A DNA stretch of 64,000 bases, taken from assembly GCA_035461765.1 (NCBI GenBank), contig DATHUY010000083.1, positions 1-64,000 on the forward strand, in the 5' to 3' direction. Below the pieces are notes generated by a model. The model was given only the letters and a program-made list of their open reading frames with translations. It searched no databases and was not told the DNA's origin. Made by a program: the position numbers and the translations under genes. How positions within the stretch are numbered: the first letter of the stretch is position 1; each line of letters opens with the position of its first letter. This DNA is from Longimicrobiales bacterium (GTDB lineage Bacteria; Gemmatimonadota; Gemmatimonadetes; Longimicrobiales; RSA9). Positions 1,306 to 62,005 of the stretch are shown here, one piece after another.

Positions 1306-2444
1306 CTGCCTGCCTCCGCCGCTGATGCCGGGCCGCCCTCGTTGGAGAAGCGGACCGGGGTTCCCTCCTGTACCGAGCCGGGCACCGCGAGCACGCGGTC
1401 GCCCGCGCTCAGCCCCGACACGATCTCGATCTGGCCGGTGACGTCGTCGCGCACACCGGTCACCACCGGGCGCCGCGTCAGGCGGTTCTGGTCGATGAGC
1501 CACACGTATGTACCGGCGTCCTGAGTGCGGACGGCGCCCGCGGGCACGGCCAGCACGCTGTCGGTCACCTGGCTGAGCACGCGACCGGTCGCGAAGACGC
1601 CGCCGACAATGCGATTGCCGGGATTCGGCAGGCGCAGATAGACACCGACCTGGCGCGTCGCCGGATCCGCGGTCGGCTCGACACGCGCGACCACACCCTC
1701 GAACACCTGGCCGGGATACGCATCGACCGTGAACTCGACGCGCTGTCCGCGCTGGACACGTGCAGCCGACTGCACCGGCACCTGGCCGGCCAGCTCGAGC
1801 TCACTCGTGTTCACCACCGTCACCAGCGGGTCGCCCGGATTCACTACCTCACCCTGACTGACATGGCGCCCGCTCACTTCACCGCCGATCGGCGACGTGA
1901 TGTTCGCACGCCGCGCGGACTCCGACGCGGAAGCCGCCTGCGCCCGCGCCGCCGCGAGCTGGCCCTGCGCAGCCTGGTATGCAGCCTCCGCGGTCTGCAG
2001 ATCGATGCTCGAGATCGCGCCGCGCTCATGCAGCGTGCGCGCCGACTCCAGCCGCTGCCGCGCGAGCGCCAGGTTCGCTTCCGCGGACGACACCTGCGCC
2101 GCGGCGCCAGCGGCCGCGCTGCGGATGCCCTCCGCCTCGATCACTGCGATCAGCTGACCCGTGCGGATGGGATCGCCGCGATCGACCGCCAGCCGGCTGA
2201 CGATGCCGGGCACCTGCGAGCGCACCTCAACGATCCGCTCGGGATTCAGCGTGCCGGTCAGCACGATTCCGCCCGTAATCTGTGTCGGCTGTACGATCGC
2301 AATGTCGGTCGGCTGGAGCACGACCGCCTCCGGCCCCTCCTCCGCCACGGCAGCGTCACCCTCTGCGTCGCCGCCACCGCACGCCGCCGTGAACACCAGC
2401 ATCATCAGTGCGAGCCCTCTCACAGGCCGCATCGATTCGTTCAT
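1302..2444 (-). CDS. RND efflux periplasmic adaptor (membrane fusion protein), lipoprotein
   Basis: HlyD/AcrA-family adaptor linking the RND pump to the outer-membrane channel. The start was placed at MNESMRPVRG because it gives a lipoprotein signal (LVFTAAC, lipidated C22) and has a purine-rich GGGGGAT upstream; an in-frame upstream extension has no signal. Residues ~55-115 form the biotinyl-lipoyl half-motif, followed by an Ala/Gln/Glu-rich helical hairpin (~100-175), the second lipoyl half with the usual SPIGGEV sequence, then the beta-barrel and membrane-proximal domains. Length (380 aa) is normal. It lies 22 bp after the TolC-like gene and overlaps the pump start by 4 bp. Confidence 0.93.
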   Translation of the reverse strand: MNESMRPVRGLALMMLVFTAACGGGDAEGDAAVAEEGPEAVVLQPTDIAIVQPTQITGGIVLTGTLNPERIVEVRSQVPGIVSRLAVDRGDPIRTGQLIAVIEAEGIRSAAAGAAAQVSSAEANLALARQRLESARTLHERGAISSIDLQTAEAAYQAAQGQLAAARAQAASASESARRANITSPIGGEVSGRHVSQGEVVNPGDPLVTVVNTSELELAGQVPVQSAARVQRGQRVEFTVDAYPGQVFEGVVARVEPTADPATRQVGVYLRLPNPGNRIVGGVFATGRVLSQVTDSVLAVPAGAVRTQDAGTYVWLIDQNRLTRRPVVTGVRDDVTGQIEIVSGLSAGDRVLAVPGSVQEGTPVRFSNEGGPASAAEAGR

Positions 2445-2466
2445 GTATGTATCCCCCGCCCCGTTG

Positions 2467-3942
2467 TCAGCGAACATCGATGAGTGTGACGCCCAGCGCA
2501 CGCTCCGCACGCGCCAGCGCCAGATAGAAATCGTGGTAAGCATTCGCCTCGTTCATGCGCGCCTGCTGCAGCGCGAGACGTGCGTCCGACACGTCCAGCT
2601 GCGTCGCCAGTCCTTCCGCGTAGCGCAGCTCCGTCAGCTCGTACACCCGCGTCGCCTGCGCCACGGTCCGCGTCGCCGCGGCGATCTGCGCGCGCGCCTG
2701 CTCCAGCTCGCCCTGCGCCTGCTCGTACTCCAGCCGCACTCCCTCCCGCAACTGATCCGCCTGCAACTCCGCCTGCCGCACCTGCGCCTGCGCCGCATCC
2801 ACCTCGGCACCGCGCCGGAACCCCTGGAACAGCGGCCACTGCACCACGAACCCGACCGTCCAGTCATCCTGCCAGTCGCTCGGTACGAATCCGCTCGGGA
2901 ACGCCTGCCGCGACAGGTTCGCCTGCAGATTCACGTTCGGCAGGAACGCGCCCCGTGCGATATCCACCTGTTCACGCCGGACCTCGACCTGCTGCTCCGC
3001 CGCCTCGATCGACGCGCGCCGCGCCAGCTGCGGCTCCGCTTCCGCAAGGCTCGGCAGCAGCACGTCCGCCGGGTCGGGCAGCGCCGGGTCCGTTGCCGCC
3101 AGACTCGATGTCAGTCGCAGTGGCGCATCGATCGGCAGGTTCACGAGTCGCTTCAGATTCAGCGACGCGAGCTCGCGCGCATTGCGCGCCTGCACCAGCT
3201 GCGGCCGCAGGTTCTCCAGCTCGACCTCCGCCCGCAGTGCGTCCAGCTCCGACGCCTGCCCCGTCTCCAGCAGCAGCTGCACCCGCTCGAGGTGCTGCTG
3301 CGCGAGATCGACGCTCGCTTCGACGATGACCTCCGCCTCCTGCGCCAGCAGCGCGCCGTAATACGCCTGCCGCACCTGCAGCGCCACGTCCGCGCGCGCT
3401 TCCGTCAGCGACGCCTCCGCCGCCGTCTCCGCGTGCCGCGCCAGCTGCACACCCGACATAATCCGTCCACCCGAGAACAGCGGCTGGTTCAGGGACGCGG
3501 CCGCCAGCCACGCGTTCTCACGACCGAACGGCAGGTTCCCGAACAGACTGCCCAGTGCACCGAACGCCGCGTTCGGCGTGTTGCGCTCCAGGTAGGCGAC
3601 ACGCTCCGCGAGCGCCGCCAGCGAGTCCGGCTCGAACCGCAGACTGTCCGGAATCTCGAAACCCGCGCCCTGGAACACCGAGCGGATCGTCTTCGTGTAG
3701 CCGACCTGCGTGTTGATCTGCGGCAGCAGTGACGAACGCGCACTGCGCACCTGCGCCGACGCCACACGCACCTGCTGCTCAGCCACCCGCACTTCCTCAC
3801 TGCGCTCCAGCGCCATCGACAGCGCCGCCGTCAGACTCAGCTCCACCGAGTCCGTCCGCTCCTGCGCCGACACCGGCACTGCACTCATGAACGCCAGCAG
3901 TACCAGCGATCCCGCCGCACCTGCCAGCCTGCTCACTCTCAT
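2467..3942 (-). CDS. TolC-like outer-membrane efflux protein
   Basis: Outer-membrane factor that forms the exit duct for the adjacent RND pump. The 491-residue protein has a cleavable signal (MRVSRLAGAAG... ending SAVPVSAQ) and two OEP repeats rich in heptad-like Ala/Gln/Leu/Glu helices (about 40-250 and 270-480), as in TolC/OprM. The chosen ATG has GAGGAGAG just upstream; the longer in-frame extension lacks a signal. First structural gene after the regulator, 32 bp downstream of it, so expression is probably driven from the dyad-controlled promoter upstream of the regulator. Confidence 0.92.
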   Translation of the reverse strand: MRVSRLAGAAGSLVLLAFMSAVPVSAQERTDSVELSLTAALSMALERSEEVRVAEQQVRVASAQVRSARSSLLPQINTQVGYTKTIRSVFQGAGFEIPDSLRFEPDSLAALAERVAYLERNTPNAAFGALGSLFGNLPFGRENAWLAAASLNQPLFSGGRIMSGVQLARHAETAAEASLTEARADVALQVRQAYYGALLAQEAEVIVEASVDLAQQHLERVQLLLETGQASELDALRAEVELENLRPQLVQARNARELASLNLKRLVNLPIDAPLRLTSSLAATDPALPDPADVLLPSLAEAEPQLARRASIEAAEQQVEVRREQVDIARGAFLPNVNLQANLSRQAFPSGFVPSDWQDDWTVGFVVQWPLFQGFRRGAEVDAAQAQVRQAELQADQLREGVRLEYEQAQGELEQARAQIAAATRTVAQATRVYELTELRYAEGLATQLDVSDARLALQQARMNEANAYHDFYLALARAERALGVTLIDVR

Positions 3943-46204: not shown

Positions 46205-46396
46205 ATTTCCTCGCGCGTCGGGAGACTCCCCACAATTGCGTGGTGGATTGCCTGTTTTTCGGCGGAACTGGTCAGATTCGCCCACTTCCTGCTGGTATTA
46301 CAGCGTCACACGGCTTCATATTGATTGTGCCCTCACATTCCGTCGCGGACGTTCCGTCCGTCCTTTTCGAGGTGCCCGCCGCTCTCCGGAGGGGTC

Positions 46397-48434
46397 ATGG
46401 CCAGTGGCCGCGAACCCGACGTCGATCCGATGATGGCCGCACGGCTCACCGCCAGCATGTCGCTCCTGCGCGTTCTCCTGGGCGCCTGCGCGGCGGTCCT
46501 GGTGCTGTTCGGTGTGTATGAGGTGCTGCTCGCGACATGGCTGAGCGAGGCGGACGCGGGCCTGCGAAGCATCCTCCACGACATCCGTGCCGCTGCGACC
46601 GCTCTCATCGTCGCTGGAGTGGCCGGCTGGCTGATACTGCGCGATGGCCCGCCACTGCTGGCAGCGGGGCCCCTCCCGCTGGACGGTGCGGCCGGAGGAC
46701 GTGTCGACCCCGAGCAGAAGCGGCTGCATTACGCACGCTGGTTCATCCTGATGCGCTGGATCGCAATCGTGGTCGCGATCCTGGCGGTAGTCGGTGCAGT
46801 GGACATTGCGAATCTGCTGCCTGCGCGCGTGAGCCCGTCGCTCATGGGCCTGATCGCCTGTCTGACGATCCTCAACCTCGGCTACACCCTCTACCTCCGC
46901 ATGGGGGGCTCCGCAACGGTCGGATTCCTGATGGTGCAGGTCTACGTCGACCTGCTCTTCCTCATCGCCATGCTGCACTATTCCGGCGGCATCGAGAACC
47001 CGCTGTCGCCGCTACTGCTGCTGCATGTGATCATCGCGGGTATCGTGCTGAGCCGCATGCATGCCTATGTGGTGGCAGCCGTGGCGAGCGTTCTCTTCGG
47101 TCTGCTCGCGTGGGGTGAGTGCACGGGCGTGCTGCCGCATTACCTGCTGTCGCTGTTCCCGCACGAGCATATCAATGGTATCGTCCGCCACGCCGCACAC
47201 GACCCGCTGTACGCCGCGAGCCGCGTAACGCTCCAGACGCTGATCATGTTCCTGGTCGCATACTTCACAACCACGCTCGTCGACCGGATCCGCGCGGACG
47301 AGCGCCAGCTCGAGGAGCAGGCGGATCGCGCGCTGGCACAGGCGCAGACGCTGGAGCGCGCGCTGGATACGACGGACACGGCGCTCTGCCTGTGCGATCG
47401 CGAGCTGCACCCGTACTGGTCGAATGCCCGCTGGACGGAGTGGGTCGCGCACACCCCCGAGTTGAGCTGCACCATGCGGTCATGCGGGTCACCCGCAACG
47501 TCCACCCTCCAGGATGGGATCGTCCGCAGCGACGAAGTCAGCAGCAGCGGCGAGACGGGAGCGAGTCACGGCAGCACGAACCGGGTCTTTCATGTGACGA
47601 CGGCGCCGGTCCGCGACCGGGCTGGCCAGATCAGCCAGGTGGTGACGCTGGCGCGCGATGTCACCGAGCAGCACGCGGCGCAGGCGCGTGCTCTGCGCGC
47701 GGAGCGGCTCGCCGCGGTCGGCGAGCTGGCCGGTCAGGTGGCGCACGAGGTGAACAATCCGATCGCCATCATCAGCGCGAAGGTCCGGCTGCTGCTTGCG
47801 GCGCAGCCCGGCACACTGACGCCGAAGGCGACGCAGGAGCTGACGAAGGTCGCTGAGCTGACGGATCGCGTTGCACGGATCGCGCAGGGACTGCTCTCGT
47901 ACTGTCGCCCGGCGCCTGGCACGCGCATGCCGATCGACCCCGTTCTGCCACTGCGGCGCGCTCTTGCGTTCGTGGATGCACGGGCGGCCGCAGCGGATGT
48001 GCAGCTCTGCGACGAGTTGCCGCCACGTCTGCCCCACGTGAACGCAAATGCAGCAGAGCTGGAGCAGGTCTTTCTGAACGTACTCCTGAACGCGCTGGAT
48101 GCGATGCCGGATGGCGGTCGGCTGCAGCTGCGGGCGGAGATGGCCACTCCAGCCGCTGGCACCGCCGATATTGCCCTGCACATCGCGGACACGGGCATGG
48201 GCGTTCCGGCCGAGCTGCGCGCGCGCGTCTTCGAGCCGTTCCTCACCACCAAAGGGGGGAAGGGGTCGGGGCTCGGCCTCTCCATCTGTCAGGGGCTGGT
48301 GCGCAGTCATGGCGGCGAGATCGATCTGGCGAGCGAACCCGGCCGCGGCACGTGTGTGACAGTCCGGCTGCCAACGCTGAACGGTGCGCTCGGCATCGCC
48401 CCTTCCACGTCCCACCCCGGGGGGATGCACGTCG

Positions 48435-48442
<8 letters not shown>
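46397..48442 (+). CDS. NtrB-like membrane sensor histidine kinase
   Basis: 681 aa. About seven membrane segments in the first 300 residues, a coiled stretch (RADERQLEEQADRALAQAQT), a PAS-like domain (~305-440), then HisKA with QVAHEVNNPIA (phospho-His) and HATPase_c with NVLLNALDAMP (N box), DTGMGVP (G1), FEPFLTTK (F) and GSGLGLSI (G2). The HEVNNP form of the H box is typical of kinases that pair with NtrC-family regulators, as here: its stop overlaps the regulator start by 8 bp. GGAGG precedes the ATG. The signal is unknown but perceived in or at the membrane. Confidence 0.92.
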
Positions 48443-49820
<1,378 letters not shown>

Positions 49821-49905
49821 CCCACCCTCCGCACCCGCACGATCGCTCCAATGACTAACCCGCCGCGCCCGGCAGACTTCGTTTGCGTCGAGCTGCTGCT
49901 TCGAT

Positions 49906-49956
49906 GTGTTCCATTCGTGTGACTCTCCGCTTCCTGCTGTCACGCAGATGGAACAC
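49906..49956. promoter_or_regulatory. Long imperfect inverted repeat, candidate NtrC-type enhancer
   Basis: Arms 49906-49923 (GTGTTCCATTCGTGTGAC) and 49939-49956 (GTCACGCAGATGGAACAC) are complementary at 15 of 18 positions with a 15-base spacer. It lies 200-250 bp upstream of the sigma-54 promoter match, the usual distance for enhancer sites. It also follows the regulator gene by 85 bp, so a transcript hairpin is an alternative, although no U-tract follows. The rest of 49821-50219 shows no gene. Confidence 0.5.
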
Positions 49957-50155
49957 TTCCATTAAATGCTGTGGCCCATGACAACCGCCCACTAGCTGGA
50001 CTGATCGTGGTCTGCCGGGGTTGGGACAGTGTCTCGCCGGCGTGACAGCGACCCGCCGCACGCCCTCCGCTCCGTCGCGCGATAGCGGCCGTAACACATT
50101 ACCCCATCACAACCTGCAGGATATGTCGAAGTGTGCAGTGCGCACGGCGAAATGC

Positions 50156-50169
50156 GGCACCACCGTTGC
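50156..50169 (+). promoter_or_regulatory. Sigma-54 (-24/-12) promoter of the cytochrome-molybdoenzyme operon
   Basis: GGCACCACCGTTGC matches the GGCAC-N5-TTGC consensus with the invariant GG and GC exactly ten bases apart. Transcription would start near 50181, leaving about 39 bases before the first gene. An NtrC-family activator with an intact GAFTGA loop is encoded just upstream. Confidence 0.68.
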
Positions 50170-50219
50170 CTTCTGTTTCCTGCAGCACCCGTCAGCCACA
50201 GTCGCTGCGAGACGACGCG

Positions 50220-50633
50220 ATGAGCCGCACCAACGTTCTGGTTGTCAGCGCCGGATCAGGGATGGGGGAATGGCTGGCGAGCCACCTGAGCCGCGATCAG
50301 TTCGCGGTTCGCACGGTGCGGCCGGGCGCAGCACTCATCGAGGCGGTGCGCTCGCGACAGCCGCACCTCGCCGTACTCGACCAGATCGATGCACATCCGG
50401 AGACGGCTCAGCTGGCAGTGGCGCTGCTGAAGGATCGCTATCCCGGTGTGCGTATCGTCGCGCTGAGCGGCGCGTCATCGGAAGCCGACGGCGAGGTCGT
50501 GGAGCAGGGCATCTTCTGTTATCTCGCGAGCTGCTCGCGTGAGGAACTGCTGCGTGTCATTGAGGCCGCAGCAATGGCGGGGCAAGGCAGGGGCCTCCCA
50601 CAAATCGAATCGGAACCGGGGAGCGTTCGATGA
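50220..50633 (+). CDS. Degenerate receiver-domain (pseudo-REC) protein
   Basis: 137-aa single CheY-like domain. The fold is visible (NVLVVSAGSGMGEWLASHL, LAVLDQIDAHPE, VRIVALSGAS, FCYLASCSREELLRVIEAA). The phosphorylation-site Asp is D54, but the acidic pair normally after the first strand is S10-A11 and the conserved Lys before the last helix is missing, so ordinary Mg-dependent phosphorylation is unlikely. It has no output domain. It is the first gene after the sigma-54 promoter, and its stop overlaps the start of the nine-haem lipoprotein (ATGA). A role as regulatory or assembly partner is inferred. Confidence 0.7.
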   Translation: MSRTNVLVVSAGSGMGEWLASHLSRDQFAVRTVRPGAALIEAVRSRQPHLAVLDQIDAHPETAQLAVALLKDRYPGVRIVALSGASSEADGEVVEQGIFCYLASCSREELLRVIEAAAMAGQGRGLPQIESEPGSVR

Positions 50634-52042
50634 GAACCAAGAAGGGTACCGCGTTCGTCCTGCTCATGATGGCAGTGGTGGTCGCGTGTGATGACGGTCT
50701 CGTTTCCGACGATCCGCAACCGTGGGAGAATCTGCCCGTGGGCGCCGGTGACTTCCTCGGATACTCGTCCGTGGAAAGCAAGTCGACGACATGCGGCAAC
50801 TGCCACAAGGGGAAGCAGGCGGTCTGGCAGGAGACGGCGCATGCGGATGCGTGGTCGACGCTGTGGGAAAGCAGTGCGAAGCAGACCATGTGCGAGGCGT
50901 GTCACAGCGTTTCTTCGCGGGGCAATCTGGTAGCCGATGCGGGCGTGGGATGGGTCGGCACGGGCAACGAGCGCTACCACGATGTACAGTGCGAGTCGTG
51001 TCACGGCCCGGGTCTGACGCATGTGCTGAATCCGGACGCGGATGGCACGAAGCCGCTCGCGTCGATAGCGGTGCCGGAGGATATGACGCGTGGCTGTGCG
51101 GAGTGTCATTCCGGGTCACACCGCCCGTTCGCCGAGGAGTGGAGCGAGTCGAAGCACGCGCGTGTGGTCGAATCGCGGTCTGCGAATCCGAGCTGCAACG
51201 GGTGCCACGAGGCCAAGGCGATTCTGCAGGGGTGGGGCGTGAATTCGACGTTCCTGGAGGAGTCCGCACCGACCGACCATCTGGCGGTGACATGCGCGGT
51301 GTGCCACGACCCGCACAATGCCGAGCACGAAGGGCAGCTGCGCTTCGCACTGAATGTCGCGGACGAGGAACAGAACCTGTGCATGAAGTGCCACCACAAG
51401 CGTGGCGTGCCCGATCTGTCCTCCACTTCGGCGCAGGCGCGCGGTCCGCACTCCCCGGAGGGGCCGCTGCTGCTCGGAGAAGCAGGCTGGGTGCCGCCCG
51501 GAATGCAGTTGTCGGGAATCGTGGGCAGCCACGGCAGTGATCGCAACGAGCGGATGTGCGCGACGTGTCACGTGAACAATCACCAGTTCACGGATCCGCT
51601 AACCGGCAGCTTCACCGCGCGTGCGACGGGGCACAGCTTTCAGGCCATTCCCTGCGCCGATGCAGCCGGCATTCCAACCGGCGCGGCGGACTGCGATATG
51701 GCAGAGCGCTCGTTCCGCAGCTGCGTGAGCTGCCATCTGTCGGAGTCGGCGGCACGCAGCGCCATGACGGTCGCTCAGATGCGGATCGCGCGACTGGCTG
51801 ATGAAGTCGGCGCACTCATCGCCCGGGTACCGGCGTCCGAGCTCAGCTCGAGCAATCCGGCCTACACGACCGCGGAAGGCGCGCGCTTCAACATGCAGCT
51901 CGCGCAGAAGAAGGGTTCGATCATTCACAATCCATTCCTCGTCGAGGCCCTGCTGCTGGCGAGCATTCGCCAGCTGGAGGTCGATTATCAGGTCACTCCG
52001 TCCGCGGGCCTCGTGCTGGATGCCCAGTTGACGTCGCACTGA
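50630..52042 (+). CDS. Nine-haem c-type cytochrome lipoprotein
   Basis: 470 aa, lipobox AVVVAC (C20). Nine CxxCH motifs: CGNCH, CEACH, CESCH, CAECH, CNGCH, CAVCH, CMKCH, CATCH, CVSCH, spread over residues ~55-370. The pattern recalls the pentahaem/octahaem-related family of multihaem cytochromes (cytochrome c554/OTR-like), but I cannot assign a known enzyme; the usual Lys-ligated CxxCK catalytic haem is absent. The last ~100 residues are haem-free and helical. Predicted to be lipid-anchored, probably in the outer membrane, as electron donor or acceptor of the conduit. A 78-bp gap follows. Confidence 0.88.
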   Translation: MRTKKGTAFVLLMMAVVVACDDGLVSDDPQPWENLPVGAGDFLGYSSVESKSTTCGNCHKGKQAVWQETAHADAWSTLWESSAKQTMCEACHSVSSRGNLVADAGVGWVGTGNERYHDVQCESCHGPGLTHVLNPDADGTKPLASIAVPEDMTRGCAECHSGSHRPFAEEWSESKHARVVESRSANPSCNGCHEAKAILQGWGVNSTFLEESAPTDHLAVTCAVCHDPHNAEHEGQLRFALNVADEEQNLCMKCHHKRGVPDLSSTSAQARGPHSPEGPLLLGEAGWVPPGMQLSGIVGSHGSDRNERMCATCHVNNHQFTDPLTGSFTARATGHSFQAIPCADAAGIPTGAADCDMAERSFRSCVSCHLSESAARSAMTVAQMRIARLADEVGALIARVPASELSSSNPAYTTAEGARFNMQLAQKKGSIIHNPFLVEALLLASIRQLEVDYQVTPSAGLVLDAQLTSH

Positions 52043-52120
52043 CGGGCCTGGCCGGCTGCGGGCGCATGCCCGCGGCCGGCGCGGTCCCCGGAAGGGGCGG
52101 GACAGTGACCGGAGGGCAAC

Positions 52121-52864
52121 ATGAGCACACAGGCAGAGTGGTTCTTCCGCCGGGGCCGCCGCGGGGTGGTGCCGGTGGTAATCAGTGCCGCTCTGCTGCT
52201 CGCGGGGCTCGCGCCGGTACGTTCATCTGCCGATCTCCAGGTTCCTGGCGCCAGCTCCACGGAATTCGATCACCGGCGTCACGAGCGTATCTCCTGTGAT
52301 CGGTGTCACGGCACGGGCGAGCAGCACCGCACGCTGCTGCTGCGTACGGCAGACGACTGCCTCGCCTGTCACCATGAGCCCGAACGCGCCAATGAATGCA
52401 CGGCGTGCCACGAGCGGTCACAGCTGCCCGAGCCCGGCACCGTTCAGGTATCGCTCGAGCTGACCGTGTGGCAGGGCGGTCGCCCGCGCGATCTGCGGTT
52501 TGGGCATGTGCTGCACGGGCGCGTCGAATGCCGCGACTGTCACGGTTCGCCCGTCACGCTGCAGATGGATCGCACCTGCGGATCCTGTCACGAAGGCCAC
52601 CATACTGCAGCGGCGGACTGTGAATCATGCCACGTGTCGCCCGGTCCTGCCGTGCATGACGCATCTGCTCACCTGTCGTGTGGCGGCGGCGGCTGCCACG
52701 GCGCGCAGACGGCGCCTGCCGTCGCATCCCGCAGCCTGTGCATTGCGTGCCATGCGGAGCAGCGCACGCATGAACCGTCCGGCGACTGCGCCCGCTGCCA
52801 CCAGGTGCCTGCCTTCGGCACGCTGCCGTCCCATCTGGTCGGCGCTGACGGAGGGCGCAGATGA
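52121..52864 (+). CDS. Periplasmic multihaem cytochrome c (8 CxxCH + 1 CxxxxCH)
   Basis: 247 aa with a signal segment (VVPVVISAALLLAGLAPV). Haem motifs: CDRCH, CLACH, CTACH, CRDCH, CGSCH, CESCH, the expanded CGGGGCH, CIACH, CARCH. FDHRRHERISCDRCH and FGHVLHGRVECRDCH show the class III/NrfH-like H-x-x-H spacing before haem motifs. About one haem per 27 residues marks a molecular wire like MtrA/PioA in the porin-cytochrome complexes. Stop overlaps the barrel gene start (ATGA), supporting the pairing. GGAGGG lies before the ATG. Confidence 0.88.
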   Translation: MSTQAEWFFRRGRRGVVPVVISAALLLAGLAPVRSSADLQVPGASSTEFDHRRHERISCDRCHGTGEQHRTLLLRTADDCLACHHEPERANECTACHERSQLPEPGTVQVSLELTVWQGGRPRDLRFGHVLHGRVECRDCHGSPVTLQMDRTCGSCHEGHHTAAADCESCHVSPGPAVHDASAHLSCGGGGCHGAQTAPAVASRSLCIACHAEQRTHEPSGDCARCHQVPAFGTLPSHLVGADGGRR

Positions 52865-54405
52865 GCGCGCGGCGTGATTTCACAATGAATGTGCGGGTGC
52901 TACCGTCCGCAACGCGAATGTGCGCCCGCCACGCGCCGGGCGTACTCGCGTATCTCGCTGCGCTGGCGGCGCTGCTCGCCTGGGCCGCGCCGCTCACGGC
53001 TCAGGCGGTCCGCGTCACCGGCGCCACGACATTCCGCTACATCGAGATCCGTCCGTTCGTGCGGGACAGTGTGCCGGCGGACTCTGCGGCCGGTACGGGT
53101 GTGCTGCGGCAGACGGCCGACGGCCGAGTGGTGCGTTGTGTGCCGGGCGAGGCGTACTGCGCGAACGTGCGACCCGGTGGACGGATCTCGAGCGTGCCGG
53201 TCGTGCACGACATGGAGGCGAATGCCTGGGGTCTCGGCACGGGTCTCCGTCTGTTCGCCCATGTGCGCGCGCGCACGAGCTTCGGCGGTGATGCCGGGCT
53301 GTGGCCACAGGGCGACGACGCCTTCGACGTGCTCGCTGCTTACGGTGAACTGGAACGTACGCGCGTGCGCGTGCGACTTGGGCGGCAGTGGCATGTCTCC
53401 GGGCTCGGCTTCTACAACTTCGACGGGCTGTCCGTGGCGGCGCGGCCGGTACGCAGCGTATGGATCGAAGCGTATGGCGGCCGCAGCCTGTTGCGTGGAC
53501 TGAACGAGAGTCGCGGCGGCGGGGCGCTGGAGTCGGTTGAGGCGTTCGCACCGCCGTCATCCGGTGTGCTGCTCGGCACGTACGCACGCTACCGAGCTGA
53601 CACGCGATTCGCGATCGGCAGCGGCTACCATGTCGAGTTCCGCACTGACGGCCACGGTCTGTACTCCGAGCTCGCCATGGCGGATGCGATGGTCCGTGCC
53701 GGCGGCCTTTCCCTGGCAGGTTCTGTGGAGCTCGATGTAGCGAGTGCCGCTCTCAACGAGGCACGCATGAGCGTGAGCACCGTGTCGCTCGGTCGGGTGA
53801 CGCTCAACGGCGAGCTGCGCCGCTACCGCCCCTACTTCGAGTTGTGGACGATCTGGGGTGCATTCGATCCCGTCGGCTTCGATGAGGTGCGCAGCGGTGC
53901 GGCGTGGAGTCCGACGCCGCACGTGATCCTTCGCGGTGAAGCGTCTTACCGCAGGTACGGAGAGGCCGGCCGGATGCAGGGTCTGGCCGCACTGCGGACG
54001 GACGGCTGGGGTCTCGGCGCCGGCGTGACCTGGTCGCCCACCGCACCATGGCAGCTCGACGCTTCATGGCACGTCGAAGTCGCTGCCGGTGCTGCGCGCC
54101 GGGACGTTCAGGGCGTACTGACCCGGCGGTTCGGCGACGTAGCCACGCTCTCCGTGCAGGGGCTTGCATTCCAGCGGTTCTACGAGTTCCGACTCGACGA
54201 GAGCACTGTCGCCGGACTGGGTGGCGAAGCGTCCGTGCGCGCATCCGACCGGCTGCGCGTGTTTGCCAATGCGGCCGCATACCGCCACCTCGGTGCCGGT
54301 GACGTGGCCGCGATGGACTGGACACAGCGGCGCGCGACGCTGCGCGTGCAGTGGACCGCCGGCGCGGAGCCCGGTCTGCCGGGAGCCGCAAGGGGGCCCA
54401 GATGA
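52861..54405 (+). CDS. Outer-membrane beta-barrel protein of a porin-cytochrome conduit
   Basis: 514 aa with a signal (LAYLAALAALLAWAAPLTAQ). The mature part alternates polar and aromatic residues in many 9-12 residue strands (VRVRLGRQWHVSGLGFYNFD, RSVWIEAYGGRSLLRG, SLAGSVELDVAS, PYFELWTIWGA, WQLDASWHVEVAAG), with a last strand RATLRVQW. No plug or TonB box is seen. It lies between multihaem cytochromes with 4-bp overlaps on both sides, as MtrB/PioB porins do beside MtrA, so it probably sheathes a cytochrome through the outer membrane. Sequence family not recognised. Confidence 0.8.
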   Translation: MSARRDFTMNVRVLPSATRMCARHAPGVLAYLAALAALLAWAAPLTAQAVRVTGATTFRYIEIRPFVRDSVPADSAAGTGVLRQTADGRVVRCVPGEAYCANVRPGGRISSVPVVHDMEANAWGLGTGLRLFAHVRARTSFGGDAGLWPQGDDAFDVLAAYGELERTRVRVRLGRQWHVSGLGFYNFDGLSVAARPVRSVWIEAYGGRSLLRGLNESRGGGALESVEAFAPPSSGVLLGTYARYRADTRFAIGSGYHVEFRTDGHGLYSELAMADAMVRAGGLSLAGSVELDVASAALNEARMSVSTVSLGRVTLNGELRRYRPYFELWTIWGAFDPVGFDEVRSGAAWSPTPHVILRGEASYRRYGEAGRMQGLAALRTDGWGLGAGVTWSPTAPWQLDASWHVEVAAGAARRDVQGVLTRRFGDVATLSVQGLAFQRFYEFRLDESTVAGLGGEASVRASDRLRVFANAAAYRHLGAGDVAAMDWTQRRATLRVQWTAGAEPGLPGAARGPR

Positions 54406-55826
54406 GACACCGGCGCGTCATCCTCCTTGCAGTCACGCCGCTCGTCATCTGCGGCGGCGCGCTCGCTGCTGCGATCGGGGCCTCGCGGGGCTTTCCACAC
54501 GAATTGCACGAGCGGCTCTTCCCGGTGTGCGAGGGCTGCCATTCGGGAATGAGGACCGGCGACGCGGCGGAAGCGTACCCGGACGCCTCCGCCTGTGAAC
54601 GCTGCCATGACGGCGCGCGCGTGGTACGGGTGGACTGGGAACGGCCGGCAGCGCAGCCCACCAACCTGCGCTTCTCGCATACCGCACATCTGCGGCAGAC
54701 GTCGCTCGCGGGCGAGCCCGCGGACTGCTCCAGGTGCCACGCGCGCGCGGGCGGCGCAGGTCGTATGGATGTTGCCCCGGCCGAGCCGGACCGCTGCATC
54801 CAGTGCCATGCCCACCGGGCGCCCACGCATCTCGACGCCACCGTCGAGTGCAGCCGGTGCCACATCGCACTGACGGATGCCGGCGCCATTCCGCTCGAGC
54901 GTGTCGCCGACTTCCCTTCTCCGCCGTCCCATGGCACCACGGACTTTCTGTCCACACACGGACCTGATGCATCGGGCGAGGGCGCGTCATGCAGCGTGTG
55001 TCATGCGCGCGAGAGCTGCGAGCGCTGCCATCCGAACGCGGCGGGGCTGGCGCCCATCGCGGCGCTCGCGCGGGACTCGCGTATCGCTGCGCTCGAGAGC
55101 GGGCGCGCGCCGGAATACCCACTTCCCGCGACACACGCTTCCGACTGGACGCTGACACACGGCGAGCCGGCACGCGCCGGCATAGACGGCTGCGCCAACT
55201 GCCACACGCAACCCGGCTGCACGGCGTGCCACACCAGGGATGATGCAGAGACACGGAACGTGATCGGCGCGCTGGCCGATGGCGTGACGCAGACCGCGCC
55301 CGGCGTCAATTCCGGCAGCTTCACCACGCGCATGCATGCGGCCGACATCGCCTCGACCCACGGCACTGCCGCAGCCAGCGGCAGCCTCGAATGTGCGCAG
55401 TGCCACACGCAGCGCGAGTGCGCCACGTGTCATGCGGGATCGCGTGCATTCCATGCGGACAACTTCGTGGAGCGTCACGCCATGGAGGCGTTCGGCGGCG
55501 GCGGCAGCTGCCAGTCGTGTCACACGACCGAGACGTTCTGCCGCGCCTGTCATGAGCGCTCCGGCCTGAGCTCGACCGCCGCCATGAGTGCCGCGTTTCA
55601 CGATGCGCAGCCGATGTGGCTGCTGGCGCACGGCCAGGCCGCGCGCATGAGCATGGACACATGCACGTCATGCCATCGCCAGACGGATTGCGTGCGCTGT
55701 CATTCCGCCGCGGGCGGATGGGGCGTCAGTCCTCACAGCCGCGGCTTCGCTGCGCAGCGGCTCGGCGAGCGCACACCGCAGACGTGCGCATTCTGTCACG
55801 CCGGCGATCCGCGGGTCAGAGAATGA
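54402..55826 (+). CDS. Sixteen-haem c-type cytochrome
   Basis: 474 aa with an N-terminal hydrophobic signal or anchor (RVILLAVTPLVICGGALAAAI). Sixteen CxxCH motifs: CEGCH, CERCH, CSRCH, CIQCH, CSRCH, CSVCH, CERCH, CANCH, CTACH, CAQCH, CATCH, CQSCH, CRACH, CTSCH, CVRCH, CAFCH. The motifs often come in close pairs (CSVCHARESCERCH, CANCHTQPGCTACH, CAQCHTQRECATCH), with STHG or LTHG or LAHG boxes giving distal His between pairs. This suggests internal repeats. ATGA overlap with the barrel gene. It probably carries electrons between the periplasm and the conduit, or on the cell surface. Confidence 0.9.
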   Translation: MRHRRVILLAVTPLVICGGALAAAIGASRGFPHELHERLFPVCEGCHSGMRTGDAAEAYPDASACERCHDGARVVRVDWERPAAQPTNLRFSHTAHLRQTSLAGEPADCSRCHARAGGAGRMDVAPAEPDRCIQCHAHRAPTHLDATVECSRCHIALTDAGAIPLERVADFPSPPSHGTTDFLSTHGPDASGEGASCSVCHARESCERCHPNAAGLAPIAALARDSRIAALESGRAPEYPLPATHASDWTLTHGEPARAGIDGCANCHTQPGCTACHTRDDAETRNVIGALADGVTQTAPGVNSGSFTTRMHAADIASTHGTAAASGSLECAQCHTQRECATCHAGSRAFHADNFVERHAMEAFGGGGSCQSCHTTETFCRACHERSGLSSTAAMSAAFHDAQPMWLLAHGQAARMSMDTCTSCHRQTDCVRCHSAAGGWGVSPHSRGFAAQRLGERTPQTCAFCHAGDPRVRE

Positions 55827-55860
55827 TGATGCAGCATCTCACCCCAGCACACGAAACGCC

Positions 55861-58203
55861 ATGAGCACCGTGGACAGAAGGACGTTCCTGATGGAAATCG
55901 CTCTCGCATCCGCCGCAGCAGCCGGCGCCACGGCAGGGCGCGGTGCGTTCCAGACGGCGGGCGCTGCTGTGGCGGGCACCGGTCCCGGCCCCGTCGTCTG
56001 GAACAAGGCCCCCTGTCCCTTCTGCAGTGTCGGCTGCGGCCTGCTGGTGGGGGTGCGTGACGGCCGTGCGATCGCGGTGAAGGGCGACACGGATTCGCCG
56101 GTGAGCCGAGGCCTCGCGTGCGTCAAGGGTTACCATGCGGCTCAGGCGCTCTACGGCCCGGACCGCCTCCTCCGGGCACGGATCCGCCGCAACGGCACGC
56201 TCGTCGACGTGCCCATGCAGGAGGCGCTCGACCTGGTCGCGACTCGTCTGCGCGACACGATCGCCAGGCATGGCAGTGACAGTGTCGGCGTGTACGGCTC
56301 GGCCCAGTGGAGCGTGCCGGATCGCTATGTCGCCGCAAAGCTGTTTCGCGGCGTGCTCGGCACCAGTCTCATCGACAGCGACACGGGTCTCGAGACCGCC
56401 AGCGGCGCCGCCGGGCTGATCGGCAGCTTCGGGATGGACGGCGCTGCCGGCTGCTATGACGACATTGAGTTCGCTGACGTGATCGTGCTGTGGAACCACA
56501 ACATCGCGGAAGCGGATCCGGTGCTCTTCTCGCGCATTCTGGAGCGCCGCCGCACGAATCCGGCCGTCCGCATCATCGATATGACGACGCGCATGTCGCG
56601 TACGAGCTATGCCGCCGACCGCACACTCGTCTATACGCCGCGCACCGAGATCGCCCTGGCCAACGCGATCTGCCACGAGATCGTGAGCCGCGGCTGGTCG
56701 AACGAAGGATTCATCAAACGTCACGTCGCGTTCCGCAGGGGCGAGGAGGATATCGGCTATGGCATGGGCGATGACCCGCTCGTCAGCGAGACGGCCGTGG
56801 GGACCGACCATACGGCGTACGTCCGCTTCCTGGCCGGCTACTCACCGGACCGCGTCGAGTCCGTCAGCGGCACTGCGGCCTCGGACATACGGTGGCTGGC
56901 GTCGCTCTACGGCGATCGCTCGCGCCGTGTCATGTCCGTGTGGGGCGCCGGAATAAACCGCCAGGCACGGGGGACCTGGATCAACAACACGCTCTACAAC
57001 ATCCATCTGCTGACCGGCAGGGTCGCGACACCGGGCAACGGCGCGCTCTGTACCACGGGCGCCGCGGACGCGTGCGCTGCAGTCGAATGCGGCGGCCGGC
57101 TCACGCCGGCGGACGGGTCGTCAATCGCGGCGACCGACCAGCAGCGCGCCCTCGCAGCCCGGCTCTGGGGCACCGACGAGGCGCGCATCAACGGCGAACC
57201 AGCGCCGGGAATCCTGCCGCTGTTCCGCAAGCTGGAGGACGGTGATCTGCGCTTCCTGTGGATCCAGGGCTCCGACCCGCTCCGCAGCCTGCCCAACCTG
57301 CAGCGCTACCGCGCGGCGGCGGCACGAGCCGATCGCTTCATCGTCGTCAGCGATGCCTATCCTACACCGACCGCGGACGCTGCCGACGTCGTGCTGCCCA
57401 CTGCATTCTGGATCGAGCGCGAAGGGATTACCGGCAACTCCGAGCGGCGTGTGCAGCACTTCGACCGCATGCTTTCGCCGCCCGGAGACGCGATGGATGT
57501 CGCGTGGCAGATGATCGAGGTGGCACGTCGCCTGGGCGCACAGCGTCTGTTCCCGTGGGCACGGGGGCGCCACGTGGAAGCGAGCTGGGACGAGTACGCA
57601 CGATTCCACGCAGCCGTCAGCAGACGCCTGCCGCCGATTGCCGAGCTGCGTGCACGCCCCGGCCTCGTGTGGCCGTTCGTCGACGGCCGCGAGACCCGCT
57701 GGCGCTACAGTACCGGACGCGACCCCGCCGCCGACGCCCGGCGTGGCGAGTTCGATTTCTACGGACACGCCGATCATCGTGCGTGGATCTGGCTGCGGCC
57801 CCATCAGCCGCCTGCAGAGTCGCCGAATGACGAGTATCCGTTCTGGCTGACGACCGGTGTCGTGCTGGAGCACGACGTCACGGCCACGGCCACGCGCCGC
57901 GTGCCCACCCTGCACCGTGCCATGCCGAAAGCGTGCGCTCATCTGAACGCGCAGGACGCGGCGCGACTCGGTATCCGGTCCGGCGAACGGGTGCGACTCA
58001 TCACCCGCCGGGGCCGGCTCGAGATCGACGCATGCATCGATCAGCGCACCCGTCCGGCGCGCGGCAGCGTCTTCGTGCCGCATTTCGACGAAGCGCTGCC
58101 GATCAATTTCCTCACACTCGACGCGTCGTGTCCGCTCTCGGGCCAGCCCGACTCCGCGTGCGCTGTCCGTGTCGAGCGGATCACAGTCCGGAGTGCCACG
58201 TGA
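55861..58203 (+). CDS. Tat-exported NapA-like molybdopterin oxidoreductase with non-Cys Mo ligand
   Basis: 780 aa. Tat signal DRRTFLMEIALASAAAAGA. [4Fe-4S] ligands C52, C55, C59 and C87; relay Lys K89 in ACVKGY as in NapA. Further NapA-like blocks: VYGSAQWS, GCYDDIEFADVIVLWNHNIAEADPVL, MTTRMSRTS, TPRTEIALANAIC, IWIQGSDPLRSLPNL-like WIQGSDPLRS, PTAFWIEREGITGNSERRVQ and PLSGQPD in the C-terminal cofactor domain. Where NapA has the Mo-binding Cys (NARHCMAS), this protein reads DTGLETAS with E178. So it is a full-length, family-true enzyme with an altered active site; nitrate reductase activity should not be assumed. NapB-like and quinol-oxidising genes follow. Confidence 0.88.
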   Translation: MSTVDRRTFLMEIALASAAAAGATAGRGAFQTAGAAVAGTGPGPVVWNKAPCPFCSVGCGLLVGVRDGRAIAVKGDTDSPVSRGLACVKGYHAAQALYGPDRLLRARIRRNGTLVDVPMQEALDLVATRLRDTIARHGSDSVGVYGSAQWSVPDRYVAAKLFRGVLGTSLIDSDTGLETASGAAGLIGSFGMDGAAGCYDDIEFADVIVLWNHNIAEADPVLFSRILERRRTNPAVRIIDMTTRMSRTSYAADRTLVYTPRTEIALANAICHEIVSRGWSNEGFIKRHVAFRRGEEDIGYGMGDDPLVSETAVGTDHTAYVRFLAGYSPDRVESVSGTAASDIRWLASLYGDRSRRVMSVWGAGINRQARGTWINNTLYNIHLLTGRVATPGNGALCTTGAADACAAVECGGRLTPADGSSIAATDQQRALAARLWGTDEARINGEPAPGILPLFRKLEDGDLRFLWIQGSDPLRSLPNLQRYRAAAARADRFIVVSDAYPTPTADAADVVLPTAFWIEREGITGNSERRVQHFDRMLSPPGDAMDVAWQMIEVARRLGAQRLFPWARGRHVEASWDEYARFHAAVSRRLPPIAELRARPGLVWPFVDGRETRWRYSTGRDPAADARRGEFDFYGHADHRAWIWLRPHQPPAESPNDEYPFWLTTGVVLEHDVTATATRRVPTLHRAMPKACAHLNAQDAARLGIRSGERVRLITRRGRLEIDACIDQRTRPARGSVFVPHFDEALPINFLTLDASCPLSGQPDSACAVRVERITVRSAT

Positions 58204-58997
58204 CACGCGAGCGTCACGCCCGGAACGCATTGCGCCGCATTGCGCTCACAACTGCCGCCGTGCTGGTGATGGTCGTACTCATCACCGGCGTGGATACGGT
58301 CGCGGCCCGTCTCGATCCCGATGGGCCGCCGGCCCCGCGTTTCGAGCCGCTCCCGGAGCCGATACCGGAGGAGGCCGGCGTATTCCGCACGCATGTCGGC
58401 GAGCTGGCGTCGGGCGATGCCGAACGGCGCAGTGACGTGCATCCCCGCACGCTCGCCACGTTCCGGATGCTGCGCGCCTGGCCCGGTGCGCCACCGCGCG
58501 TGCCGCACGGCCTGACTGCCGAGGAGTTCCGCGCTTCCAGCTGCAACACCTGCCACGAGCGCGGTGGATTCGTCGCGCGTTTCGCCTCGTACGCGCCGGT
58601 CACGCCCCACCCGGAGCTCAGCGCCTGTCTGCAGTGCCACGCAACAGACGCGACACTCGTCGGCATCGACTACCCCGATCAGGGCAGGGATGCCGTGTGC
58701 CGACAGTGTCACGATCCGGCCAATCCGTCAGGCGACCGCATCCCATCACCCCCGCCGGAACTCTGGCCAGTCCCGTCATCGGTGCGTGACGGGATGCCGC
58801 AGCTGATTCCCCACGACCTGGCGATGCGCGCGAACTGCCTCGCGTGTCACGCCGGTCCGTCCGCCGTAGCGGAGATCCGCACCACGCACCCGGAACGCAG
58901 TGACTGCCGGCAGTGTCACCTCCCGCTCGCCGCTGACGCCGACGTGTTCCAGCGCCCGCCCGCTCCACTGTTCCACCTGCCTGGAGCTGAACAATGA
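58200..58997 (+). CDS. Pentahaem NapB-like cytochrome c
   Basis: 265 aa with an N-terminal membrane/signal segment (LTTAAVLVMVVLITGV). Five haems: CNTCH, CLQCH, CRQCH, CLACH, CRQCH. Segments such as APPRVPHGL, GMPQLIPHDLAMRANCLACH and ERSDCRQCHLP resemble the diheme NapB subunit of periplasmic nitrate reductase, which has two haems and the same PPxIPH and CxQCHxP features; here three more haems are added. Starts with GTG overlapping the molybdoenzyme stop (GTGA), so it is most likely its direct electron partner. Ends overlapping the tetrahaem gene. Confidence 0.8.
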   Translation: MTRERHARNALRRIALTTAAVLVMVVLITGVDTVAARLDPDGPPAPRFEPLPEPIPEEAGVFRTHVGELASGDAERRSDVHPRTLATFRMLRAWPGAPPRVPHGLTAEEFRASSCNTCHERGGFVARFASYAPVTPHPELSACLQCHATDATLVGIDYPDQGRDAVCRQCHDPANPSGDRIPSPPPELWPVPSSVRDGMPQLIPHDLAMRANCLACHAGPSAVAEIRTTHPERSDCRQCHLPLAADADVFQRPPAPLFHLPGAEQ

Positions 58998-59686
58998 GCG
59001 CACACACAGCGGTGCTCATCACCTGTGCGGCGCTGATCGCGCTGCCGGCCACGGGCTGCTCGGACAGTGACACCGGAGGCGGCGCGCTCGCACGGGCCAG
59101 CGCTGCCGACGTTGCGCATGTCGAGCCCGGCCTGCTCCCCGTCGTGGCGGGACTGCCGGTCGACGGGCGCACGGGTCCTGACGGCGCACCGTTCGAGGTG
59201 GCGCCACGTGCTCGGGAGGTCGCGGGGGCGCACGCGCGTCGTTTCGGCGGGCGCACGCTGATGATCGGGCTGCGCACGCGCACGCCGGACCTGACGCAGT
59301 ATCCCTGCACGGCATGTCATCTCGGCCGCGGCCTGGTACCGTCACAACAGCGCGCGACAGACGCACACCAGGACATCCCGACGGCGCACCCCGCGGCGGC
59401 CGGCGGCGGCTGCATCATGTGTCACGCAGCAGCGGACGTGGAGCTGCTGGAACTGCAGAGTGGTGAGCGGGTGAGCGTGGACCACGCGTACCGCCTGTGC
59501 GCACAGTGTCACTTCGCGCAGGCGGATGAATGGTCGGCCGGCGCGCATGGCAAGCGACTCGACGGCTGGCAGGGCCGCCGCGTGGTGATGGGCTGCGCCG
59601 ACTGTCACGATCCGCACCAACCGCAGACCGGTCAGCGCAAGCCGTTCCGCGGGCCGCGTCTCGATCCGAGTGGGAGGACGCGATGA
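58994..59686 (+). CDS. Tetrahaem cytochrome c lipoprotein
   Basis: 230 aa, lipobox LPATGC (C22). Four haems: CTACH, CIMCH, CAQCH, CADCH, with conserved His between (HAYRLCAQCHFAQADEWSAGAHGKR), recalling the tetrahaem NapC/NrfH-like or cytochrome subunits of Cbc-type quinone oxidoreductases. Followed with a 4-bp overlap by the Fe-S protein and then NrfD, so it is probably the periplasmic cytochrome of that complex. Anchored in the inner or outer membrane by lipid; which is not clear. Confidence 0.85.
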   Translation: MSAHTAVLITCAALIALPATGCSDSDTGGGALARASAADVAHVEPGLLPVVAGLPVDGRTGPDGAPFEVAPRAREVAGAHARRFGGRTLMIGLRTRTPDLTQYPCTACHLGRGLVPSQQRATDAHQDIPTAHPAAAGGGCIMCHAAADVELLELQSGERVSVDHAYRLCAQCHFAQADEWSAGAHGKRLDGWQGRRVVMGCADCHDPHQPQTGQRKPFRGPRLDPSGRTR

Positions 59687-60672
59687 GCACCGAGCGCGAG
59701 CTGCGCCTCGATGACGTGCTGCGTGAGGCAGAAGCGCACGAATCGATTCTGGATCGACCGACCGACCGGCGCGGGGCGCTGCGGGTGCTGCTCGCCGGGC
59801 TCGCCGCCGCAGCGCAGGCCACGGGCGCGTGCTCGCCCGTAAGCGGCGCGACTGCGGAGGAGCAGGAAGCGAAGCAGCTCGAATGGCGTGAGCACATCAA
59901 GCAGCACTACCGCCGGATGACGGAAGACGAACGGACGGCGACGATTGCACGGCTGGAGCGACTCGCACAGCTGAAGCATGGTACGGAGATCACCATGCAG
60001 TCCACCGCCGCGCAGCCGGGCGTCGAGTTCGGCTATGCATTCAACATCTCGAAATGCAAGGGCTTCCGCAGCTGCATCGAGGCGTGCATCAACGAGAACA
60101 ACCTCGATAGGAAGAGCGCCACGCAGTACATCCGCATCTTCGAGCTGGAGGATGGTGTGATCGATCTGGATCACGGCGATGCAACGTTCGAGCACGATGT
60201 CCCCGCCGAGGACCATTTCTACCTCGGAACGCAGTGCTTCCAGTGCGCGGATCCGCCGTGCGTAAAGGTGTGCCCGGTCGGTGCGACGTGGCAGGAGCCG
60301 GACGGCATCACTGTCATCGACTACGACTGGTGCATCGGCTGCCGCTACTGCATGGCTGCCTGCCCGTACTGGGCCCGCCGATTCAACTGGCGCGAGCCGG
60401 AAGTGCCTGCGGGGGAGATGAACCCGAACCAGCACTATCTGGGGAACCGCATGCGCAAGAAGGGCGTGGTCGAGAAGTGCACGTTCTGCGTGCACCGCAC
60501 ACGGCAGGGCCGGCTGCCCGCGTGCGCCGAGGCGTGCCCGACGGGTGCGCGCGTCTTCGGTAACCTGCTCGATCCGGCTTCGGAGATACGATGGGTGCTC
60601 GCCAACAAGCGGGTGTTCCGGCTCAAGGAGGACCTGATGACCGAGCCGCGTTTCTGGTACTTCAGCGACTGA
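59683..60672 (+). CDS. Ferredoxin-type 4Fe-4S electron-transfer subunit (NrfC/DsrO/HmcB-like)
   Basis: 329 aa. N-terminal Tat-type signal (DRRGALRVLLAGLAAAAQ, with a possible lipobox QATGAC). Cluster motifs: CKGFRSCIEAC (C-x5-C-x3-C, wider than the usual CxxC), CFQCADPPCVKVCP, CIGCRYCMAACP and CTFCVHRTRQGRLPACAEACP, enough for four [4Fe-4S] clusters. It should shuttle electrons between the NrfD membrane protein and the cytochromes. ATG overlaps the tetrahaem stop; 7 bp separate it from nrfD. Confidence 0.92.
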   Translation: MSTERELRLDDVLREAEAHESILDRPTDRRGALRVLLAGLAAAAQATGACSPVSGATAEEQEAKQLEWREHIKQHYRRMTEDERTATIARLERLAQLKHGTEITMQSTAAQPGVEFGYAFNISKCKGFRSCIEACINENNLDRKSATQYIRIFELEDGVIDLDHGDATFEHDVPAEDHFYLGTQCFQCADPPCVKVCPVGATWQEPDGITVIDYDWCIGCRYCMAACPYWARRFNWREPEVPAGEMNPNQHYLGNRMRKKGVVEKCTFCVHRTRQGRLPACAEACPTGARVFGNLLDPASEIRWVLANKRVFRLKEDLMTEPRFWYFSD

Positions 60673-60679
60673 GCGCCAC

Positions 60680-62005
60680 ATGCACCTGACGGCATTCGCG
60701 CGCAACGCATTGCATTCCGCCACCACCGGCGGCCGCCGCTATCACCTGTGGATGGCGACGCTCACCTTCATCATTCTGCTCGGCGGATACGCCTACTCCA
60801 TCCAGCTGCGCGAGGGCCTAGGCGTCACCGGCATGAACGACCACGTCAGCTGGGGACTCTACATCTCCAACTTCACGTTCCTGGTCGGCCTCGCCGCCGC
60901 GGCCATGATGCTCGTCCTGCCCGCCTACATCCTGAAGGACGTCGATTTCGCGCGTGCCGTGCTCATGGCGGAAGCCGTTGCAGTGGCAGCGCTGGTCATG
61001 TGCCTGCTGTTCGTCGTCGTCGATGTCGGCAACCCGATGGCAGCGTGGCACCTCATACCCGGCGTCGGCCTCCTCAACTGGCCCCGTTCGCTGCTGGCCT
61101 GGGATGTCATCGTGCTGCATGGCTACCTGGCCATCAATCTGGCCATCCCCTTCTACATCCTGTACAGCCGCTTCGCGGGACGCACGCCGCAGAAGCACAA
61201 GTACCTGCCATGGATGTACGTTGCCGTCATCTGGGCGGTCAGCATCCACATGGTCACGGCGTTCCTGCTCGCCGGGCTGCCCGCGCGGCCGTATTGGAAC
61301 ACGGCACTGCTCGGACCGCGGTTCCTCGCGTCCGCATTCACCGCGGGCCCCGCATTCGTGATCCTGCTGCTCTGGCTCATTCGCCGTGAGACTCACTACG
61401 ACATAAGCGATGGCGCATTCACGAAGCTGGCGCTGATCACGACCGTGGCGGCACAGGTGAATCTGATAATGCTGCTGTCTGAGATCTTTTACAAGTTCTA
61501 CTCACCGACGCATCACGGCATCAATGCGCGCTACCTGTTCTTCGGCATTGACAGCCATACGCGTCTGGTCCCGTGGATCTGGACGGCCGTGGGACTCAAT
61601 GTCGCCGCCACCGTCGCACTCACCATTCACCCGCTGCGCCGCAGCACGCGCTGGCTGATGCTCGCGTGCGCCGTGCTGTTCATCTCCATCTGGATCGAGA
61701 AGGGCATCGGCCTCGTCATCCCCGGATTCGTGCCGTCGCCCCTGGGCGAGATCGTCGAATACTCGCCGACGTGGATCGAGATCGCCGTCACCGCCGGGGT
61801 GTGGGCGCTCGGCCTGGCAGTGCTCACCGTGCTCGTTCGTGTTGCGCTCCCCATCGAGCTGGGGCACGCTCGCAGTCCGCGCATCGAGCGGCAGCAACAT
61901 CCGGTGATCCGGCCCATGAAGGGTCACAGCACAGCCGGAAGCCGCACCCGAGTAACGACGGCGCGCAGCGTTCGCACTCCGGAACCGCCGGTGCGGATCC
62001 GTTGA
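60680..62005 (+). CDS. nrfD: NrfD/PsrC-family membrane quinone oxidoreductase subunit
   Basis: 441 aa, about ten membrane segments, no cofactor motifs, as in HmcC/DsrP/NrfD proteins that exchange electrons with menaquinone. Typical features: NDHVSWGLYISNFTFLVGL in TM2, VVDVGNPMAAWHL, LLSEIFYKFYSPTHHG, LVPWIWTAVGL and WIEKGIGLVIPGF. The hydrophilic C-terminal tail (~395-441) is basic and likely cytosolic. It forms the quinone-linked module with the Fe-S and tetrahaem proteins. The direction (quinol oxidation or reduction) depends on the unknown substrate. Confidence 0.92.
   Translation: MHLTAFARNALHSATTGGRRYHLWMATLTFIILLGGYAYSIQLREGLGVTGMNDHVSWGLYISNFTFLVGLAAAAMMLVLPAYILKDVDFARAVLMAEAVAVAALVMCLLFVVVDVGNPMAAWHLIPGVGLLNWPRSLLAWDVIVLHGYLAINLAIPFYILYSRFAGRTPQKHKYLPWMYVAVIWAVSIHMVTAFLLAGLPARPYWNTALLGPRFLASAFTAGPAFVILLLWLIRRETHYDISDGAFTKLALITTVAAQVNLIMLLSEIFYKFYSPTHHGINARYLFFGIDSHTRLVPWIWTAVGLNVAATVALTIHPLRRSTRWLMLACAVLFISIWIEKGIGLVIPGFVPSPLGEIVEYSPTWIEIAVTAGVWALGLAVLTVLVRVALPIELGHARSPRIERQQHPVIRPMKGHSTAGSRTRVTTARSVRTPEPPVRIR

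Follow-up and report, generated by a model that had tools for sequence, protein, structure and literature searches.

The question raised by this locus is how a long respiratory operon comes to be switched on in a Longimicrobiales bacterium, given that the operon lies directly behind the genes of a sensor kinase and a sigma-54 activator (Table 1). The original prediction held that a sigma-54 promoter, together with a distant inverted repeat, couples this pair to the operon. The analysis of the surrounding 64,000 nucleotides, here called the window, and of related loci makes it very probable that a local sigma-54 switch operates here, running from the kinase through the activator and three operator dyads to a sigma-54 promoter and the respiratory genes.

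Table 1. Features of the window (the whole 64,000-nucleotide stretch analysed) and distances from dyad centres to the GG of the -24/-12 element at each locus. Ranks are window-wide and come from a dyad matrix trained on the relatives only.
Feature	Position	Strand	Details
Sensor histidine kinase	46325..48442	+	PilS-like 6-TM, PAS, HisKA and HATPase (Pfam); start codon uncertain
Sigma-54 activator	48435..49820	+	Receiver, AAA+ (GAFTGA) and Fis-type HTH (Pfam); start overlaps kinase end
Operator 1, TGTTCCATTCGTGTGACT	49907..49924		Dyad, 3 mismatches; matrix rank 5; centre 240.5 bp before GG
Operator 2, TGTCACGCAGATGGAACA	49938..49955		Dyad, 2 mismatches; matrix rank 6; 31 bp from operator 1; centre 209.5 bp before GG
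Operator 3, TGTCTCGCCGGCGTGACA	50030..50047		Dyad, 1 mismatch; matrix rank 1, 21 bits; centre 117.5 bp before GG
-24/-12 element, GGCACCACCGTTGC	50156..50169	+	Exact core; predicted start ~50180-50181
Degenerate stand-alone receiver	50220..50633	+	First gene of the predicted operon; 40-47% identical in six relatives
Conduit-like module	50630..55826	+	9-, 8- and 16-haem cytochromes around a barrel (CxxCH counts, Pfam)
Presumed outer-membrane barrel, 514 aa	52861-54405	+	Inferred from context
NapA-like molybdoenzyme, two small multihaem cytochromes, DsrO-like FeS protein, DsrP/NrfD-like membrane protein	55861..62005	+	NCBIfam, Pfam
Dyads, window			240.5/209.5/117.5 bp
Dyads, L132			261.5/231.5/117.5 bp
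Dyads, L127			263.5/231.5/119.5 bp
Dyads, L130			264.5/232.5/120.5 bp
Dyads, L131			267.5/236.5/119.5 bp
Dyads, L133			261.5/229.5 bp
Dyads, L134			144.5/115.5 bp

The activator has a clear Sigma54_activat domain (228.8 bits, Pfam) and, as had been noted, an intact loop, which reads ERGAFTGA. The kinase matches HATPase_c and 6TM_PilS in Pfam, with HisKA and PAS_4 slightly below their cut-offs, and AtoS is its nearest NCBIfam model. The pair had been taken for NtrBC, an assignment that does not hold: neither protein reaches the NCBIfam equivalog cut-off (387 of 559 bits for NtrC, 91 of 240 for NtrB). The activator shares the domain order of NtrC, but the kinase, unlike NtrB, has a PilS-like six-transmembrane domain, and the activator scores 424 of 714 bits against AtoC and 346 of 763 against GlrR, whose cut-off it likewise does not reach. 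Judged by these profiles, the pair is AtoSC/PilSR/GlrR-like rather than NtrBC proper.

The candidate promoter GGCACCACCGTTGC has the exact GG-N10-GC spacing previously described and matches the TGGCAC-N5-TTGC element. It is the sole exact GGCAC-N5-TTGC in the 64-kb window, and the chance expectation of the exact core is about 0.0015 for one strand of the 399-bp spacer. In the whole 4.68-Mb genome, however, this pattern occurs 35 times, no more than its reversed control (62 times), and the element alone is thus modest evidence. A genome without rpoN would have spoken against a sigma-54 promoter, and the gene is present (C121:770-1246, Sigma54_DBD 213.7 bits).

Upstream of this element, pattern search finds three copies of a dyad with the 18-bp consensus TGTCAC-N6-GTGACA, which differs from the NtrC site, GCACCA-N5-TGGTGC. 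The original prediction had described one 18-bp inverted repeat (15/18) at enhancer distance, 200-250 bp upstream. Such a repeat exists (arms 49903-49923 and 49939-49959, 21 nt each, 81% complementary, 15 nt apart), but a more apt description is a pair of imperfect dyads on the same helix face; these are each asymmetric and lie in opposite orientation, which generates the long repeat. Sites at enhancer distance are therefore borne out, but there are three of them, and the third and best had been overlooked. Two further features may be mentioned here. A strong dyad match of 15.5 bits at 55518-55535, within the 16-haem cytochrome coding sequence, is probably due to chance. In addition, a TAACACATT block at 50092-50100, about 60 bp before the GG, recurs at a similar place in one related locus (L133), with looser GTAAC/GTTAC versions in two others (L127 and L132), and is perhaps a site for a bending protein or some other factor.

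The trio of kinase, activator and degenerate stand-alone receiver is found at six further loci, five from Gemmatimonadota and one labelled Planctomycetota, with activators 56-67% identical to that of the window. The first comes from a genome of the same family (G002; L063, the same locus as L132; activator 65% identical), and the others are L127 (G183, same class as the window), L130 (G133:C104), L131 (G134:C358), L133 (G396:C93) and L134. The named records are MAGs of Gemmatimonadetes or Gemmatimonadaceae except L134 (JACQVW010000062.1), a Planctomycetota-labelled MAG contig from a groundwater study that also yielded several of the Gemmatimonadetes matches; its copy of the cassette may reflect horizontal transfer or mis-binning. 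Orthologues of the kinase are present in L132, L127, L130 and L133, with a fragment in L131. The distribution is patchy, since a receiver orthologue occurs in 3 of 395 genomes of a phylum-wide draw and none was found in a genome of the same genus (G001). A fourth, weak receiver match, in a 528-aa frame, was set aside because it looks like a receiver domain within a larger protein. Dyad-pair matches at G332:C147 and G239:C1, which have no cassette genes nearby, were likewise rejected.

A pairwise alignment of the window spacer with its G002 counterpart, at the DNA level, was uninformative, and the dyads were recognised by reading the G002 spacer, which carries a perfect TGTCAC-N6-GTGACA palindrome and, at a distance of 114 bp, a copy with one mismatch, and by pattern search. 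The search proposed in the original prediction, for the repeat at orthologous loci, proved fruitful in that all six relatives have dyads in this spacer and a -24/-12 candidate behind them. The consensus used to pick the relatives' dyads came to light in one of those relatives, but the locus being scored was always left out of training; scored in this way, the spacer contains the two best sites of each relative's locus and the best one of the window. The geometry is strict. Three dyads are present in five loci, and in each of these the proximal one lies 117.5-120.5 bp from the GG; the next lies at 229.5-236.5 bp in five loci, and the two distal dyads are 29-32 bp apart in all seven. Compared with most relatives, the window has its distal pair shifted by about 22 bp, or two helical turns, towards the promoter. 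No proximal dyad can be recognised in L133, and L134 carries just two dyads. Half-sites are 78% identical across loci, compared with 47% for the DNA between the motifs, a value close to the shuffled level of 46%. For the promoter, a GG-N10-GC scan upstream of the receiver gene, run with no positional prior, places the best site 64-84 bp before that gene in six of seven loci and the second best there in L131 (72-84 bp in the six relatives, 64 bp in the window), with the L132 counterpart being weak (mismatches 5/12). In L131, a Glu/Leu/Phe/Val dehydrogenase gene (1737-3026, minus strand) separates the activator gene from the operators, while operators, promoter and receiver gene stay undivided, an arrangement that speaks for the receiver promoter as the one served by these sites. 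The presence of rpoN, the intact activator, and the retention by six relatives of dyads, promoter and spacing together support the sigma-54 promoter reading.

What the promoter would control is less constant. In the window, the genes from 50220 to 62005 overlap or are closely spaced, a layout consistent with one transcript. The barrel protein within the conduit-like module has no family match. The genes behind the module combine a NapA-like molybdoenzyme (677 of 904 bits, below the NCBIfam cut-off) with DsrO-like (193 of 200) and DsrP-like (397 against a cut-off of 350) quinol-side proteins; in three other loci (L066, L068 and L071), the molybdoenzyme module does not follow the conduit but is arranged divergently from it. 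Among the relatives, the cassette is followed by a cytochrome c and an alternative complex III operon with ActD (L127), FeS-NrfD-cytochrome c genes (L133), a 502-aa protein and a 13-haem cytochrome (L134), proteins with weak porin matches (L130 and L132), or a cytochrome c fragment at the contig end (L131). Conversely, no strong dyads lie upstream of 20 homologues of the first cytochrome of the window, including the paralogue on G000:C108, and sigma-54 matches upstream of these homologues are few, with no clear excess (0.27 per kb, the window itself having 0.16 per kb on each strand). That paralogue belongs to a second conduit cluster in the same genome (L062, 4464-10753), arranged cyt1-cyt2-barrel-cyt3. 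Conduit orthologues were consequently dropped as a test set, as the motif follows the regulator and not the homologues of the first cytochrome. The varied targets and the 20 homologues without dyads indicate that the switch goes with the regulator cassette rather than with the conduit; a sigma-54 switch on a cytochrome operon is supported at this locus, but it is tied to the kinase-activator-receiver genes and is lacking at the conduit homologues elsewhere. Kinase, activator, operators, promoter and pseudoreceiver behave as a cassette, which in the relatives is placed before different respiratory or outer-membrane operons. In genome-wide scans with a single motif, neither the dyad nor the -24/-12 core clearly exceeded the reversed control, and no wider regulon is therefore claimed.

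One may argue that the dyads bind another regulator, for example of the CRP/FNR type, and that the operon is read mainly from a promoter of another class or from the activator's own transcript. CRP-type proteins also recognise TGT...ACA dyads, and a CRP-like protein is encoded upstream of the kinase in L127. Nevertheless, this explanation is unlikely, because the dyads accompany the activator in seven of seven loci and are missing where a conduit homologue occurs without this activator, they keep a fixed distance to the -24/-12 element, a scan of the window spacer found no sigma-70-like promoter, and their TGT-N12-ACA spacing is that of the sigma-54 activator QseF. Most likely, as far as can be read from these patterns, the three dyads are binding sites of the adjacent activator itself. 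A second explanation, in which a weak terminator ends the kinase-activator operon and includes the -24/-12 sequence, draws on a scan that gives a 5-pair stem (50154-50169) with a T-rich tail, one found where 0.2 are expected; it is very improbable, as the stem is short with only three G-C pairs, the T tract is interrupted, and relatives keep GG-N10-TGC at this place (e.g. GGCACGCATCCTGC and GGCACGAGTCCTGC) without comparable T tracts. Finally, accidental matches in a GC-rich spacer would suit the fact that neither motif alone clearly exceeds its reversed control genome-wide, but when the window spacer was shuffled 2000 times with dinucleotides preserved, no shuffle reached the best or third dyad score, and with sites and geometry kept in six diverged relatives, the comparative evidence in practice refutes chance.

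The sigma-54 promoter is followed by the same first gene in all seven loci, the stand-alone receiver. Its predicted fold is receiver-like (pLDDT 82.8, with receiver matches in Foldseek), and the FrzS receiver is its nearest solved relative by profile. Asp54 is kept in all seven, the acid pair is replaced, with Ser10 invariant, and the Lys is absent. Lacking the acid pair and the conserved Lys of phosphorylatable receivers, the protein probably cannot be phosphorylated normally, and feedback on the kinase or activator is a natural guess for its role.

Several known systems resemble parts of this arrangement. At E. coli glmY, QseE/QseF (GlrK/GlrR) acts through three upstream sites with the consensus TGTN12ACA (PMC6075780). 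Common to both cases are a two-component sigma-54 activator, three upstream sites and a controlled gene next to the regulator genes, and the outer half-sites and spacing of that consensus are those of TGTCAC-N6-GTGACA (PMC6075780), with an exact fit at operators 2 and 3 of the window and TGT-N12-ACT at operator 1. The two differ in that the window activator scores well below the GlrR cut-off, no QseG-type lipoprotein gene was noted at the window locus, and the target is a respiratory operon headed by the pseudoreceiver gene rather than a small RNA. In Desulfovibrio, DVU3142 is predicted, from gene adjacency and conserved sites, to control the Ohc octahaem cytochrome operon, and is thus likewise a sigma-54 activator assigned to neighbouring cytochrome, FeS and membrane electron-transfer genes (PMC4641369). 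However, the DVU3142 gene is divergent from its operon (PMC4641369), whereas in the window the pair and operon are co-directional, a pseudoreceiver gene intervenes, and targets vary among relatives. The RpoN regulon of Geobacter sulfurreducens also links sigma-54 to cytochromes, including those of extracellular electron transfer, but it is global, and the accessible part of that report does not describe a dedicated cassette with three phased operators (PMC2725144). Hence, this kind of control is already known, as the DVU3142/Ohc case illustrates, and what is new is the swapping of targets, the strict operator-promoter geometry and the conserved pseudoreceiver. Within a partial coverage of the literature, no paper was found that places such operons of Gemmatimonadota under the control of sigma-54.

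In the mechanism we propose, the membrane kinase would, on a signal, phosphorylate the activator, whose dimers would bind the three dyads and loop onto sigma-54 polymerase at the -24/-12 element. Transcription would then start near 50181 and run through the pseudoreceiver gene and the cytochrome, NapA-like and NrfD genes. It is a tentative extension, and somewhat doubtful, that the cassette is portable, has been put upstream of different Gemmatimonadota respiratory complexes including alternative complex III, and has its output limited by the pseudoreceiver acting back on the kinase or activator.

The locus and its relatives offer a testable case in which operator-promoter geometry is held within a few bp while the flanking DNA has fully diverged and the operon has been exchanged. 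This suggests that, in a phylum that has received little study, one sensory cassette governs electron-transfer complexes of different kinds, and the operator consensus provides a means of finding the targets of the cassette and, via these targets, its signal.
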